In this document: positions 32,269 through 38,415 of the stretch, piece by piece | How positions within the stretch are numbered: the first letter of the stretch is position 1 | How the letters are laid out: every line of letters starts with the position of its first letter | DNA from: a virus | DNA: 47,284 nucleotides | Virus record (IMG/VR): IMGVR_UViG_3300025889_000194 | Span: 1 to 47,284 of that record | Reading direction: 5' to 3' (one strand) | The notes under the pieces: generated by a model | Database searches by the model: none | Told to the model about the DNA's origin: nothing | Seen by the model: the letters and a program-made list of their open reading frames with translations, nothing else | Translations under genes and position numbers: made by a program

Positions 32269-32493
32269 TTAGATTATCTCCTCAATCAAAAAAGTTGCCT
32301 TCAACCCACTTGTATGAATTGCCAGCAGACTTGGGCAATCCTTTGCCGGCAATCCTTTGCCAAACCTACCATCTTCGAACCAAGCTCCAGCGGGAAGGGA
32401 AAACGACTTGTTAGCAATCCCCATCGCACTGAGTGCCTTATCGGAACTGACACGAATCGTTTTACCTTCAAACGTGAAATAGAACTGTTTCAT
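32269..32493 (-). CDS. Hypothetical protein (74 aa)
   Basis: MKQFYFTFEGKTIRVSSDKAL suggests a small beta-sheet protein; the remainder has FSLPAGAWFEDGRFGKG. Coupled to its upstream neighbour by TAATG. Function unknown. Confidence 0.6.
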   Translation of the reverse strand: MKQFYFTFEGKTIRVSSDKALSAMGIANKSFSLPAGAWFEDGRFGKGLPAKDCPSLLAIHTSGLKATFLIEEII

Positions 32494-32849
32494 TACGCAA
32501 TCTCCTCAAAACCAAAACTCGCAACCATGTGGCGGTCACCGTCAGCATCCTCAACCACGTCACCAACGCTCAGGCTGTGCATGGGAAGGAACCGTTCAAT
32601 GTTCTCTTCTGGACCCATGTTACCAACGTGGAACACACCCTCAAGGCTGTCAGCAGTGATGTTGCTGACATGCTCGTAGTAGCCTTTCTCAAAGGCTTCC
32701 TTAACCAGGTGCCCTACAGGCTTACCAAACGACATTTCAATATCGAGGCGCAGTTTGTTTTTGGGAACGGCGCCGTGATCGTTTGCGGCGTTGATCGTGT
32801 CAATCTCTTCATCAGTGAGGTTGATCTGGAAAACTTTGTAAACTGCCAT
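32493..32849 (-). CDS. Hypothetical early protein (118 aa)
   Basis: The start at 32849 is chosen because it follows GAGGAGCAAGCAA, the same leader ending as in the rightward early genes; the open frame continues upstream only by chance. It begins MAVYKVFQINLTDEEIDTIN, a helix-forming, RHH- or swapped-hairpin-like start, and ends with a strand-rich VGDVVEDADGDRHMVASFGF. First gene of the leftward early group and driven by promoter cassette 1. Confidence 0.7.
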   Translation of the reverse strand: MAVYKVFQINLTDEEIDTINAANDHGAVPKNKLRLDIEMSFGKPVGHLVKEAFEKGYYEHVSNITADSLEGVFHVGNMGPEENIERFLPMHSLSVGDVVEDADGDRHMVASFGFEEIA

Positions 32850-32880
32850 TTGCTTGCTCCTCAATTTCAACTTATACTTT

Positions 32881-32908
32881 ATAATAGCACAGTTACCCAG
32901 ACAGTCAA
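32881..32908 (-). promoter_or_regulatory. Early promoter cassette 1 (leftward)
   Basis: On the minus strand TTGACT, 16 bases, TATTAT with TGC before the -10, followed by TATAAGTTGAA and a GAGGAGC ribosome site. It drives the leftward small genes from 32849. Confidence 0.8.
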
Positions 32909-33110: not shown

Positions 33111-33138
33111 TTGACTACCGCTAAATCTGTGTTACTAT
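33111..33138 (+). promoter_or_regulatory. Early promoter cassette 2
   Basis: TTGACT, 16-base spacer, TACTAT, then a leader ending AAGGAGCAAGCAA before the ATG at 33168. Confidence 0.75.
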
Positions 33139-33167
33139 ATGTATAGTTAGAAACAAGGAGCAAGCAA

Positions 33168-33350
33168 ATGGAGCACATTATGCGAGTCAAGTTTGAGAAC
33201 GGTTTTGCTATCTTCCAGGACGACACTGTGGTTTCCATGGAATCAGACTTTGGTAATGCCGCAGAGCTTGAGATGGTGCTCAGCGAGATGCATCCGGATA
33301 GCAAGTTTACTATCCGTGAATTCCGCAACTTTGGTGCAATTATCCTCTAA
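33168..33350 (+). CDS. Small early protein (60 aa)
   Basis: MEHIMRVKFENGFAIFQDDT followed by a helix (AAELEMVLSEMHPDS) and a strand-like end. Preceded by its own promoter cassette and a strong AAGGAGC site. No homolog recognised; short phage early proteins of this kind often modulate host functions, but nothing specific is visible. Confidence 0.65.
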   Translation: MEHIMRVKFENGFAIFQDDTVVSMESDFGNAAELEMVLSEMHPDSKFTIREFRNFGAIIL

Positions 33351-33771: not shown

Positions 33772-33801
33772 ACGGTATAAGTTGAACTTGAGGAGCGAAA
33801 G

Positions 33802-34050
33802 ATGAATTCAGTTAGACAGGCTATTACAGCAATCCATTCACTCGAGACCAACGAAGAGCTTAATCAGGTTATTGAAGCAGTCAAACTCAAGCGTCAGTAT
33901 CTAGCTGGAGTGCCTGTAGGTGGTACACTACTCGAAAAAGTAGTTATTCGTCAAGGTGATTGTAGTATGACATTCGAAGGTGGCCACACGCACTTGATTC
34001 TTGAAGATGATACAGTAGTATATGAATATAAAGCAATGGAGAAAGTATAA
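33802..34050 (+). CDS. Small early protein (82 aa)
   Basis: A helical N-terminus (SVRQAITAIHSLETNEELNQ, then VIEAVKLKRQYLAG) followed by beta-strands (HTHLILEDDTVVYEYK). Function unknown. The TAATG couples it to the next gene. Confidence 0.65.
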   Translation: MNSVRQAITAIHSLETNEELNQVIEAVKLKRQYLAGVPVGGTLLEKVVIRQGDCSMTFEGGHTHLILEDDTVVYEYKAMEKV

Positions 34051-34245: not shown

Positions 34246-34273
34246 TTGACTTAATAGCAGATTCTGCTATTAT
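34246..34273 (+). promoter_or_regulatory. Early promoter cassette 5
   Basis: TTGACT, 16-base spacer ending TGC, TATTAT, then a longer leader with TAAGTTAAAC and GGAGGAGCAA immediately before the ATG at 34311. Confidence 0.8.
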
Positions 34274-34310
34274 GTATGAGTAAGTTAAACAAACGCTCGT
34301 GGAGGAGCAA

Positions 34311-35360
34311 ATGAACTACGTTTTAATTAAGACAGGCACGTACCAAAAACTTCAAATTGAAGACAAGGTATTTCCTGTTATCAAAGGATTTAAGCAAGGT
34401 GCTCGTGGATCCTACATCACTGTGGATGGCTCCACACTTGGCAGCGACTATGCTCGCCCGGTGCGTATCAAATGTAGCAAGGCTGACATTGTAGATGTTG
34501 AGCAAGACGCATTTGATCGTCAATTGACAGCCCTGGATGTTAATAAAGATATCAAGTCTGGCTCAGAACCCAAGTTTACAGAAGCACAGGACGAAAAGCG
34601 CATCCAGGAGATTGAGGAGCGTTTTGAAATCCTCAATGAAATGACTGGCGCTCTTAAGAGCGGTGACATTCGTGCAATGATTGTTACTGGCCCTCCGGGT
34701 GTTGGCAAGAGCTACGGTGTTACGCAGACCCTGGAAGAGCAGAGCATCTTCGAAGATGTTGCTAGCAAGCGTCGTAAGTTTGAAGTTGTCAAGGGTGCAA
34801 TGACTGCCCTGGGCTTGTATGCTAAACTGTATGAGTATAGCGAAAAAGGCAACGTCCTGGTGTTTGACGACTGTGACAGCGTTCTCATGGACGATCTAGC
34901 ACTGAACATTCTCAAGGCAGCACTTGATAGTGGTAAGAAGCGCAAGATCTTCTGGAATGCAGATTCAGCCAAGTTGCGTAGCGAGGGTATTCCAGATAGT
35001 TTTGAGTTTAAAGGCACTGCCTGCTTTATTACTAACATCAAGTTCGAGAATGTAAAAAGCAAGCGTCTGCAGGATCACCTGGAAGCCTTGCAAAGCCGCT
35101 GCCACTACCTGGACTTGACCCTGGACACCATGCGTGACAAATACCTACGCATCAAGCAGATTGCTCGCACTGGCAAACTCTTTGGCGCTGACTACGGGTT
35201 CAGTACTGAACAGGAGCAGGAGATCCTGGACTTTATGTACGAAAACCGTAACCGGTTGCGTGAGATGAGCCTGCGTATGGCACTGAAGATTGCAGATCTT
35301 AAAAAGATCTCAGAAAAGTGGAAGTCTCTTGCAGAAAGTACTTGCATGCGACGAGCTTAA
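34311..35360 (+). CDS. AAA+ ATPase
   Basis: 349 aa from the ATG after GGAGGAGCAA. Residues 1-85 form a beta-rich N-terminal domain. Walker A GPPGVGKS is at 127-134 and Walker B VLVFDD at 182-187, with a likely sensor region CFITNIKFENVKSKRL and an arginine-rich C-terminal helical lid. Relatives occur in T4-like marine phages without known role. It is the last gene served by the early cassettes and is followed by the candidate RNA. Confidence 0.8.
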   Translation: MNYVLIKTGTYQKLQIEDKVFPVIKGFKQGARGSYITVDGSTLGSDYARPVRIKCSKADIVDVEQDAFDRQLTALDVNKDIKSGSEPKFTEAQDEKRIQEIEERFEILNEMTGALKSGDIRAMIVTGPPGVGKSYGVTQTLEEQSIFEDVASKRRKFEVVKGAMTALGLYAKLYEYSEKGNVLVFDDCDSVLMDDLALNILKAALDSGKKRKIFWNADSAKLRSEGIPDSFEFKGTACFITNIKFENVKSKRLQDHLEALQSRCHYLDLTLDTMRDKYLRIKQIARTGKLFGADYGFSTEQEQEILDFMYENRNRLREMSLRMALKIADLKKISEKWKSLAESTCMRRA

Positions 35361-35370
35361 CTGCTACAAT
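35342..35370 (+). promoter_or_regulatory. Putative promoter for a small RNA
   Basis: TTGCAT, 17-base spacer, TACAAT, with TGC before the -10 as in the early cassettes. It overlaps the 3' end of the AAA+ gene. Transcription would start near 35377. Confidence 0.45.
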
Positions 35371-35376
35371 ACAGAA

Positions 35377-35460
35377 TACGTTAGCTGTATCACTTGCTCC
35401 TCCTCTCTCCTCCAAGATACAGTTAACAAGGCGGTGTGTTTAGAAATAGACACACCGCCA
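35377..35460 (+). ncRNA. Candidate regulatory RNA with two stem-loops
   Basis: There is no good ORF in this gap. Stem 1 pairs GTTAGCTGTATC with GATACAGTTAAC (12 bp including one G-U) around a 24-base pyrimidine-rich loop. Stem 2 pairs GGCGGTGTGT with ACACACCGCC (35430-35459). The loop contains CTTGCTCCTCCTC, which is complementary to early ribosome-binding regions: 10 bases with GGAGGAGCAA before the AAA+ gene, 10 with GAGGAGCAAG before the 32849 gene, 8 with GGAGCAAG before the 33168 gene. The second stem could end the RNA, though only a weak T-rich stretch follows. An antisense or sponge role on early translation is inference. Reading the minus strand, the loop looks like a ribosome site before a 9-codon GTG frame, an alternative explanation. 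Confidence 0.4.
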
Positions 35461-35482
35461 CTCTTTGTGTTAGAATACAAGA

Positions 35483-36124
35483 ATGAAGATAGCAATCGGT
35501 GACAGTTTTACCTACGGTGAAGAGTTAAGTGACAGACGCCTAGCATGGCCTAGTCTTATAGGTTACGAGAATCTAGGACTGCCAGGCGCAAGCAATGAGT
35601 ATATTTTCCGCACTGCCGTGGACAATGCCAGCGCGGCAACCCATATGGTAGTTGGCTGGAGTGACAGTGCCAGGCATGAGATATATACTTATGATCCTGT
35701 TAGTGTTCCTGGCAGATATATGAATAAAACAGGACTGATACAGGCCAATGCAGGCAACGATTATGGCAAACCCTGGTTTAGAGATTTGTATGGTAAGTAT
35801 ACTGACCTGCGACATCAGTTTATCCGCACACTGACATATATGGTATCACTTCAAGATGTGCTAAGTATTAATGCAGTGGATTACTTCTACTGTTCAGCCT
35901 TTAGCAACCAATCCATGTTTTATAGATACAAGGATGACCCTGAGATTGTTAAATGGACAGACAGACTAGACAACACCAGGTTCATTGGATATCCATACAA
36001 GGGCTTTGTTGAGTGGGCTTATGGAGCACCACAAGGGCCAGGCGGACACCCACTTGAACAAGGTCACAAACAGATAGCAGAAAATATTGTTAGACATATC
36101 AAAGATCGTCAGCTTGCATTGTGA
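35483..36124 (+). CDS. SGNH/GDSL-like hydrolase, copy 1
   Basis: 213 aa. IAIGDSFTYGEELSDRRLAW gives the block I serine in GDSF; GLPGASNEYIF is block II-like; the end GGHPLEQGHKQIAENIV has the catalytic His in the expected C-terminal place. The family hydrolyses esters, including O-acetyl groups on glycans. Two paralogs follow at 42893 and 43551. The start lies shortly after the candidate RNA. Confidence 0.75.
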   Translation: MKIAIGDSFTYGEELSDRRLAWPSLIGYENLGLPGASNEYIFRTAVDNASAATHMVVGWSDSARHEIYTYDPVSVPGRYMNKTGLIQANAGNDYGKPWFRDLYGKYTDLRHQFIRTLTYMVSLQDVLSINAVDYFYCSAFSNQSMFYRYKDDPEIVKWTDRLDNTRFIGYPYKGFVEWAYGAPQGPGGHPLEQGHKQIAENIVRHIKDRQLAL

Positions 36125-36989
36125 GATAACCACGCACTGCAATGCACGTTGCCCACAGTGCCCACGCAACTTCTGTGGTTGGAATCAGCCTGTAAACGTA
36201 GAACTAAAGCATATGAAGCCTCTAAAGCTACGCAAAATTACGGATCAGTTGCAGCCTATCAATGCATTATTCTGTGGTAACTATGGCGATCCTATGATGC
36301 ATCCGGACCCAATGGGACTTGCATACCAGTTCAAACATGTTACTATCAACACAAATGGCAGCATGGGTGCTTTGAAGACCTATCGTCAGCTAGCTGAGAA
36401 CGGTGTTGACATTTGGTTTAGTATAGACGGGCTAGAGGATACTAACCACATCTATAGGCAGGATGTAGTTTGGGATAATATCATGGAACGAGTAGATGCG
36501 TTTATCAGTGCAGGCGGTTGTGCTACGTGGAAGTTCATTGTGTTTAGACATAACATGCATCAGATAGATCGCGCTAGAGAGTTAAGTGCGGAGTTGGGAT
36601 TTAGTAATTTTCGATTAATACGAGGCGGTAGAGACTGGGGACCTATATTAAATAACACAGGAAAGGAAGTAGGTTGGTTGTTGCCTGCTGATAGGGATGT
36701 AGAACCCTACGAGTATGATATAGATTTTGAGATAGAACTGCTTACTAATCCTATTAACTTGCATAATGATTATAGTGATGCTATAATAGATTGTGAGATG
36801 TTAAGAGACGGTACCATTTACGTAGATGTAGACTGTAACATCTTACCCTGTTGCTACCATGGTGTTAACACTCACATACAAGCACAAGGCAAAACACTAC
36901 AAGAACAGCTCAATAGTTTTGCGTTCCTGCAAGACAACTGGGGCAAAAAGGACTGTGATGAAACCTGCTATTCTGCATGTAAAAGATGA
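36087..36989 (+). CDS. Radical SAM protein with SPASM-like C-terminus, copy 1
   Basis: 300 aa if it starts at the TTG at 36087, overlapping the hydrolase; a TTG at 36114 would fit the alignment with copy 2 better. Cluster motif C18-x3-C22-x2-C25 (CNARCPQC). WFSIDGLEDTNHIYR matches a segment in copy 2 (YFALDGLADTHSIYR). The C-terminus has a Cys group (DCNILPCCY, then DCDETCYSAC) like SPASM domains that hold extra clusters. Such enzymes often modify peptides. Its 3' end overlaps uvsW by 32 bases. Confidence 0.8.
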   Translation: MLDISKIVSLHCEITTHCNARCPQCPRNFCGWNQPVNVELKHMKPLKLRKITDQLQPINALFCGNYGDPMMHPDPMGLAYQFKHVTINTNGSMGALKTYRQLAENGVDIWFSIDGLEDTNHIYRQDVVWDNIMERVDAFISAGGCATWKFIVFRHNMHQIDRARELSAELGFSNFRLIRGGRDWGPILNNTGKEVGWLLPADRDVEPYEYDIDFEIELLTNPINLHNDYSDAIIDCEMLRDGTIYVDVDCNILPCCYHGVNTHIQAQGKTLQEQLNSFAFLQDNWGKKDCDETCYSACKR

Positions 36990-38415
36990 GGTTAACGTAA
37001 AGATCGAAGGGTTGGATCTTGATACTCGCCGCAAGCTGAGTAACAAGTTCAAGTTTGAAATCCCTGGTGCTCGTTACATGCCAGCAGTCAGACTAGGACG
37101 CTGGGATGGCAAGATGGCATTTTTTCAGCTGGGTGGTAGTACATACATTAACCTGCTGCCAGAAATACTGCCTATACTAACCAGTGATGGTTACGATGTT
37201 ACGCTTAACGATATACGTGATTATCAAATGGACTATCCACTGGAGCCTGTTACAGAGGATAGTTACAGTGATCGTACCTGGCCCAAGAAACATCCAGCAG
37301 CGGGCGAACCCATCGTCCTCAGAGACTATCAGGTAGAGGTTATCAATAACTTTTTAACTAACCCGCAGAGCCTACAGGAAGTAGCAACAGGCGCGGGCAA
37401 AACACTTATAACAGCAGTACTAAGTCACAGATGCGAGGAGCATGGGCGTACTATTGTTATCGTGCCTAACAAAAGTCTGGTAACACAAACAGAAGCAGAC
37501 TACGTTAACATGGGACTTGACGTTGGTGTGTTCTATGGTGACCGCAAAGAGTTTGGGCATACACATACCATTTGTACCTGGCAGAGTCTAAACATACTGC
37601 TTAAGAATACTAAAAACCAAGTAGCACCTATTACTATACAGGAGTTCCTAGAAGACGTTGTATGTATTATGGTAGACGAAGTGCACATGGCTAAGGCAGA
37701 CGCACTAAAGACGCTGCTAACAGGTGTAATGAGTCACATACCAATACGTTGGGGACTAACAGGCACAGTGCCTAAAGAGGACTTTGAAAAGATCAGTTTG
37801 GTGTGTAGTCTAGGCCCTGTTATCAATCAGATTAGTGCAAGTGATTTGCAAGAGCGAGGAGTTCTTGCTAATTGTGAAGTGAATGTGTTACAATTAATAG
37901 ACACTAAGGAATATACAAACTATCAAAGCGAACTTAAATACTTGTTAGAGCAAACTGATAGGCTAGATTATATCAGTAGCCTTATAGATAATATAAAAGA
38001 CACTGGCAATACGCTGGTATTAGTGGATAGGATCAATGCAGGAAAAGAACTTGAAAAGAGGATTTCGGGCTCCGTTTTTGTCAGCGGTGGAACAAAAGCA
38101 CAAGAGCGTAAGGACCATTATGATGAGGTGGCTGATGCAACTGATAAAGTTATTATCGCTACTTATGGTGTTGCCAGTGTTGGTATTAATATTCCTAGGA
38201 TATTTAATCTGGTACTTCTTGAACCGGGAAAAAGTTTCGTCAGAGTCATCCAGAGTATTGGAAGAGGCATCAGACGTGCAGAAGACAAAGACTTTGTCCA
38301 GATATGGGATATTACGTCGACGTGTAGGTTTGCCAAGCGGCACCTCACAAAACGCAAAGCATTTTACACGGAAGCGAAATATCCGTTCAACATTCAGAAA
38401 GTAGACTGGCAATGA
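36958..38415 (+). CDS. uvsW: UvsW helicase
   Basis: 485 aa; T4 UvsW has about 500. An SF2 helicase that unwinds branched DNA and R-loops, shifting T4 to recombination-dependent replication. The start is ATG 36958, giving MKPAILHVKDEVNVKIEG, the usual N-terminal domain. Walker A ATGAGKT at 143-149, DEVH at 240-243, GLTGT at 266-270 and motif VI QSIGRGIRR at 432-440. It overlaps the radical SAM gene and the next ORF (ATGA). Confidence 0.95.
   Translation: MKPAILHVKDEVNVKIEGLDLDTRRKLSNKFKFEIPGARYMPAVRLGRWDGKMAFFQLGGSTYINLLPEILPILTSDGYDVTLNDIRDYQMDYPLEPVTEDSYSDRTWPKKHPAAGEPIVLRDYQVEVINNFLTNPQSLQEVATGAGKTLITAVLSHRCEEHGRTIVIVPNKSLVTQTEADYVNMGLDVGVFYGDRKEFGHTHTICTWQSLNILLKNTKNQVAPITIQEFLEDVVCIMVDEVHMAKADALKTLLTGVMSHIPIRWGLTGTVPKEDFEKISLVCSLGPVINQISASDLQERGVLANCEVNVLQLIDTKEYTNYQSELKYLLEQTDRLDYISSLIDNIKDTGNTLVLVDRINAGKELEKRISGSVFVSGGTKAQERKDHYDEVADATDKVIIATYGVASVGINIPRIFNLVLLEPGKSFVRVIQSIGRGIRRAEDKDFVQIWDITSTCRFAKRHLTKRKAFYTEAKYPFNIQKVDWQ

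Follow-up and report, generated by a model that had tools for sequence, protein, structure and literature searches.

A covarying hairpin at the 3' end of an early AAA+ gene, a putative RNA off-switch for early translation in large uncultured phages

In T4-type phages, the shut-off of early translation is known to be carried out via proteins, RegB and RegA. RegB cuts GGAG in early ribosome-binding sites (PMC3014915). In the icaR mRNA of Staphylococcus aureus, the motif UCCCCUG of the 3' untranslated region (3' UTR) pairs with the Shine-Dalgarno (SD) region of the same mRNA and blocks initiation (PMC3868564). The alphaproteobacterial small RNAs (sRNAs) cuckoo/alpha-r14 (NfeR1) carry an ultraconserved anti-SD motif, CCUCCUCCC, in loops borne by very different stems, and broad targeting has been predicted for them (PMC10746234). 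In Vibrio cholerae, OppZ and CarZ are sRNAs from the 3' end of an operon that repress this same operon; of these, OppZ depends on Hfq, is generated by RNase E and has its site of action between oppA and oppB (PMC9438474).

The element described here lies 3' of an AAA+ ATPase gene of a phage and occurs in three sequence classes, R1, D, and E. By sequence, it resembles icaR in that a motif in the 3' UTR complements the SD region of its own mRNA. It differs from icaR in being a phage element, in its covarying hairpin loop, in its longer match to the leader, in its three sequence classes and in the many early genes concerned in class D. As in cuckoo/alpha-r14, constant anti-SD loops are carried by variable stems; however, these sRNAs have three hairpins each with CCUCCUCCC, whereas one or two anti-leader hairpins are found here, with no Rfam match above the gathering score (the best sub-threshold hit reaches 18.6 bits vs. 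36 needed, and a lenient scan gave nothing usable). Also, unlike a bacterial sRNA, the phage element follows its own early leaders. Like OppZ and CarZ, the class E element has a target within its parental operon as judged from complementarity, but this target would be the first leader of the operon and, in class D, a regulon. Finally, RegB is a protein endonuclease, whereas a complementary RNA is proposed here. Models of RegB (PF10715) and RegA (PF01818) matched none of 16 records, an absence that is not firm for records that are fragments; in cultured relatives, used as positive controls, both models match. No earlier description of such an element was found by a term search of a review of phage-derived sRNAs or by searches of open-access papers.

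The window, that is, the whole stretch of DNA analyzed, is a 47-kb virus record (47,284 nucleotides). Its layout appears to be T4-like, because the late-promoter-like sequence TATAAATA and weak SD sequences precede the left-hand genes while strong SD sequences and early-type promoters are found at 32-35 kb. Most early genes of the window have their own early promoter (TTGACT-N16-TG.TATTAT). That of the AAA+ gene has counterparts before neighboring early genes, at 33111, 33357, and 33744 on the + strand and at 32908 on the - strand. Since most early genes are equipped in this way, the AAA+ gene is expected to be early, with the hairpins as the 3' end of its mRNA; from the positions of promoter and terminator, both ends of the unit would be carried by one transcript. 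The features of the locus are as follows.

34246-34273, + strand: AAA+ early promoter, TTGACT-N16-TATTAT, its -10 box preceded by TG
34301-34310, + strand: AAA+ leader GGAGGAGCAA, 10 nt complementary to the loop of hairpin 1
34311-35360, + strand: AAA+ ATPase gene, relative of T4 NrdC.10 (phrog_1250 match, 5.6e-80)
35342-35370, + strand: promoter-like TTGCAT (35342-35347), 17-nt spacer, TACAAT (35365-35370)
35380-35427, + strand: stem-loop 1, 12-bp stem (35380-35391 / 35416-35427)
35430-35469, + strand: stem-loop 2, terminator-type, 13 bp closing GAAA (35430-35459), weak T tail

Both hairpins lie in the 122-nt gap that separates the AAA+ stop codon (35360) from the following ATG (35483). The 24-nt loop of stem-loop 1 (ACTTGCTCCTCCTCTCTCCTCCAA, 35392-35415), accessible by computation, holds the anti-SD/anti-leader sequence CUUGCUCCUCCUCUCUCCUCC and contains CTTGCTCCTCCTCTCTCCTCC. 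A reading made beforehand from the sequence only had placed TTGCAT-N17-TACAAT before two stem-loops in this gene-free gap, and all its coordinates are right. This second promoter could start an independent RNA near 35377, with the caveat that its -35 hexamer falls within conserved AAA+ codons. The arrangement TTGCAT-N17-TA(T/C)AAT is kept in a single clade, made up of the window and eight near relatives, and many other members are devoid of it. The spacer is always 17 nt long, and the -10 box reads TATAAT in L002, L003, L007, L009, L010, L073, and L075 and TACAAT in L008. Hence, the free RNA with its own promoter that had been suggested finds support in one clade only; elsewhere the promoter is absent and a 3' UTR route is possible.

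The AAA+ leader is the strongest leader match of the loop in the window: 10 nt, with an energy of -19.9 kcal/mol, as compared to -9.3 for the 16S anti-SD sequence with the same leader. Other early leaders are predicted to be targets in trans.

32853-32862, - strand: leader GAGGAGCAAG of the leftward early gene 32493-32849, predicted trans target (10 nt, -18.8 kcal/mol)
33156-33164, + strand: leader AGGAGCAAG of the early gene 33168-33350, predicted trans target (9 nt, -16.2 kcal/mol)
33790-33801, + strand: leader GAGGAGCGAAAG of the early gene 33802-34050, weaker predicted trans target (-15.8 kcal/mol)

The two 10-nt matches announced by the sequence-only reading, with the AAA+ and 32849 leaders, are both found; that with the 33168 leader is confirmed as well, with a length of 9 nt instead of 8. 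The comparison with shuffled controls also came out in favor of this reading, as only 0-0.7% of mononucleotide shuffles of leader or loop reach the energies observed for these three leaders. Across the window, the 8 genes called at 32.0-34.4 kb have a mean duplex energy with the loop of -14.4, vs. -6.1 for the 56 remaining ones. The pattern GGAGCAA with an ATG no more than 8 nt further on (ORF of at least 30 aa) occurs at only three sites of the 47 kb, which are the three leaders just named, and the reversed-pattern control occurs nowhere in the window. A complementarity of at least 10 nt between a leader and its own 120-nt 3' flank was observed for 3 of about 1,320 genes (13 records), two of which are AAA+ genes, one in the window and the other in G001; the AAA+ genes of G005 and G015 belong to the group reaching 9 nt.

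In order to follow the element in other genomes, 75 IMG/VR relatives of the AAA+ protein were collected. Both hairpins follow the AAA+ stop codon in 27 of these relatives and in the window (28 strong matches to the covariance model), and by this model each genome has a single strong copy, in every case 3' of AAA+. Seventeen distinct copies of this class, named R1 after its model, were aligned. Despite wide sequence divergence, 95.4% of the stem cells are paired. Compensatory changes are abundant, with 19 of the 25 pairs altered on both sides (107 cells), 11 of 12 in stem-loop 1 and 8 of 13 in stem-loop 2. The covariation score is 0.694, vs. 0.261 after shuffling and 0.056-0.136 in slid controls. 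This strongly positive outcome in related phages marks the element as a structured non-coding RNA element in all likelihood. All relatives bearing it are uncultured. No significant leader/3' UTR match was found in eight cultured NrdC.10 homologues (PA5oct-like, FBB1, VAP7, Atu_ph07, CZ01, VR5, S13, and TSW001), and a nucleotide search of cultured phages gave no match. A search of genome contigs for the AAA+ protein retrieved no relative, and hence no clue to the host.

In the R1 loop, CUCC repeats persist while the length varies between members. The loop CTTGCTCC is usually found with the leader GGAGCAAG, and the loop CTCTCTCC with the leader GGAGAGAG; the swap test shows a modest effect (7.3 vs. 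6.7 nt). Some members keep the SD core alone, with 6 nt in L002 and L003 and 7 nt in L009/L013, where the leaders have GCAAG or GCAAA, and the AAA+ gene of L006 has a different leader. L020 and L024 show a simpler form: after the stop codon comes TTACTCCT or TTGCTCCTT, with a match to AGGAGTAA or AAGGAGCAA. Cross-matching of whole genomes gave a weak signal for a many-target R1 regulon, because few leaders match per genome and gene calls miss small early genes; the local count of the GGAGCAA pattern and class D provide a clearer picture of candidate targets than this cross-matching.

Distinct from these comparisons, some features of the R1 hairpins themselves can be mentioned. The apex of hairpin 2, UUUAGAAAUAGA with its GAAA tetraloop (35438-35451), is near-constant in most R1 members while the remaining stem varies, which seems unusual for a plain terminator. 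A second, weaker anti-SD hairpin having its own terminator-like hairpin lies in tandem upstream of the element in L025 (6777-6862), L026 (2216-2312), L027 (866-962), and L037 (681-768).

With queries from more distant homologues, 153 distinct AAA+ loci were gathered in all. Class E leaders read CATTCCACGCAAAGGA or a variant of it, and a hairpin with the loop TATTTGCGTGGAATG or a variant closes the operon, 0-1.7 kb after AAA+. Leader and loop match over 9-13 nt in 27 distinct pairs. The changes are matched on both sides, as in CATTCC/GGAATG, in CATCC/GGATG (where a 1-nt indel is matched) and in CACGCGAA/TTCGCGTG. The match adjoins the SD sequence on its upstream side, outside the SD core. The class E stems covary too (14-row alignment, three rows of which are out of register). 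In 6 of 10 whole class E records, CCACGCAAA is found exactly once per orientation, at the leader and at the loop. No permutation out of 20,000 reaches the native class E total (p < 5e-5), and the loop-leader association in R1 gave a permutation p of 0.009, two values that overstate certainty, since the sequences compared are relatives and not independent. A stronger argument than these values is that the same gene carries three unrelated loop sequences, each of which matches its own leader.

Class D is characterized by a 15-nt loop, CCGATTCGCTCCCGG, invariant in 28 hairpins on widely different stems. There are usually two copies after AAA+, the second being the loop of the terminator, and a T run follows the terminator hairpin in 32 of 38 cases, from which the strand of the element is known. 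In records of 95-383 kb, TTCGCTCCC is rare outside the class D site. The loop matches GGAGCGAA leaders, which are grouped just upstream of AAA+ and on its strand. In G029, such leaders precede 13 of the 34 called genes of the early cluster (19 of 34 when GGAGCG is counted) vs. 0 of 27 in two other stretches of the same record; in G033, they precede 10 of 28 (13 of 28 with GGAGCG) vs. 0 of 25 elsewhere. The class D RNA lies at the end of the early cluster and is complementary to a leader common to a third to a half of this cluster. In addition, class D early genes share an extended SD leader, AAGGAGCGAAC (G029:C1 26-39 kb, G033:C1 2-11.5 kb), a candidate for a phage-specific translation signal.

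These relatives bear on what had been put forward for the window. The match past the SD core is borne out, since loop and leader still match in relatives whose sequences have changed, and the match lies outside the core in class E. Action either in trans or on the RNA's own leader had been envisaged, and each finds its counterpart by sequence, many early leaders in class D and the operon's own leader alone in class E. On the whole, the sequence-only reading of a structured RNA whose loop would pair with early ribosome-binding sites is supported.

The element looks like an RNA off-switch for early proteins, because its loop complements early ribosome-binding sites and relatives with different loops keep the match. 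We consider it probable that it is a 3'-end riboregulator that pairs with early leaders, blocks the 30S subunit and ends early translation and, in one clade, is perhaps also made as an independent small RNA. Transcription would yield the element as the 3' end of the AAA+ (NrdC.10-like) mRNA and, in members that have the extra promoter, as a separate RNA of about 90 nt as well. Hairpin 1 would then expose a loop complementary to the extended SD leader of early genes, above all that of AAA+. Once the RNA has accumulated, possibly after processing, the loop may invade early leaders beside or over the SD sequence, its pairing energy being about double that of the 16S tail. Such a pairing, in cis within the mRNA that carries the loop or in trans on the mRNAs of other early genes, would prevent 30S binding. 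The resulting delayed negative feedback would close early translation and spare late genes, the leaders of which are without the sequence. Leader and loop would co-evolve as an address and its matching eraser, and the single-target class E and the multi-target class D would differ solely by the number of genes bearing the address.

The main competing explanation is a purely cis control of the AAA+ mRNA by pairing of its 5' and 3' UTRs, as in icaR (PMC3868564), the other leader matches being by-products of a shared leader. We find it plausible though less probable than not, as it accounts for the AAA+ match being the strongest in the window and for class E, where the complementary leader belongs to the same operon and is the sole such site in 6 of 10 records; it sits poorly with the complementary leaders on a third to a half of the class D early cluster and with a promoter that, in one clade, would make the RNA alone. 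As the sign of an effect cannot be read from sequence, the same evidence is compatible with a positive role, in which pairing circularizes the early mRNA or shields it from nucleases. Such a role is unlikely, because the duplex covers or abuts the SD sequence, exceeds SD/16S pairing in the window by about 10 kcal/mol, and has its best precedents in repressors.

A still less likely reading takes the element as a global anti-SD RNA directed against host mRNAs, leading to host translation shut-off. The several CUCC/CCUCC copies of R1 loops do resemble the 16S tail, and loops of this kind serve cuckoo/alpha-r14 sRNAs against many mRNAs (PMC10746234), but the loops of classes D and E are specific to leaders of the phage, the class E loop pairs beside the SD core, and host targets would not be expected to produce co-variation of the loop with leaders of phage genes. 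An ordinary terminator with a pyrimidine-rich hairpin, its SD complementarity being incidental, is strongly disfavored. Any CUCC-rich loop will match purine-rich SD sequences, and the SD core explains part of the pairing; however, loops are constant while stems turn over, the gene-wide and shuffled controls speak against chance matches, and class E matches lie outside the SD core with their changes matched. Apart from these, a small coding gene is ruled out by loop lengths that differ by non-multiples of three while the stems covary, and an SD decoy on the opposite strand by the T runs that class D terminators carry on the element strand.

If the riboregulator reading is true, the element would be an RNA counterpart of T4 RegB. 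It would point to a widespread RNA-based early shut-off in uncultured large phages, with target sets predictable from sequence. Three loop/leader codes at one gene would also offer natural co-evolution data on RNA-RNA recognition, and early regulons of other phages could be sought by scanning for strong 3'-end complementarity. The broader proposition seems evenly balanced to us: large T4-related environmental phages would possess an undescribed class of RNA switch, in which early genes share a leader address, a complementary hairpin RNA at the end of the last early-cluster gene brings early translation of the whole set to a close, and loop and targets are rewritten together.

Some observations concern the surrounding genes. 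The AAA+ homologue of phage VR5 carries the annotation "similar to T4 NrdC.10." In phage records (e.g., MK797984.1, MT920315.1, and MF403008.1), NrdC.10-like AAA+ ATPases are frequently annotated as thioredoxin, a label possibly derived from the T4 gene name. Downstream of the element (window 35483-38415), a first gene having no Pfam or PHROG match is accompanied by genes for a radical SAM protein (PF04055, weak match) and a phage DNA helicase (phrog_16). Gene 35483 has a -10-like TGTTATAAT / TGTATAAT about 8-12 nt upstream of its ATG and is devoid of SD sequence (window 35470-35485). The same arrangement is found at the same place in L001-L010, L018, L022, and L028, and suggests a start of the leaderless or late type, which would be out of reach of an anti-SD RNA.
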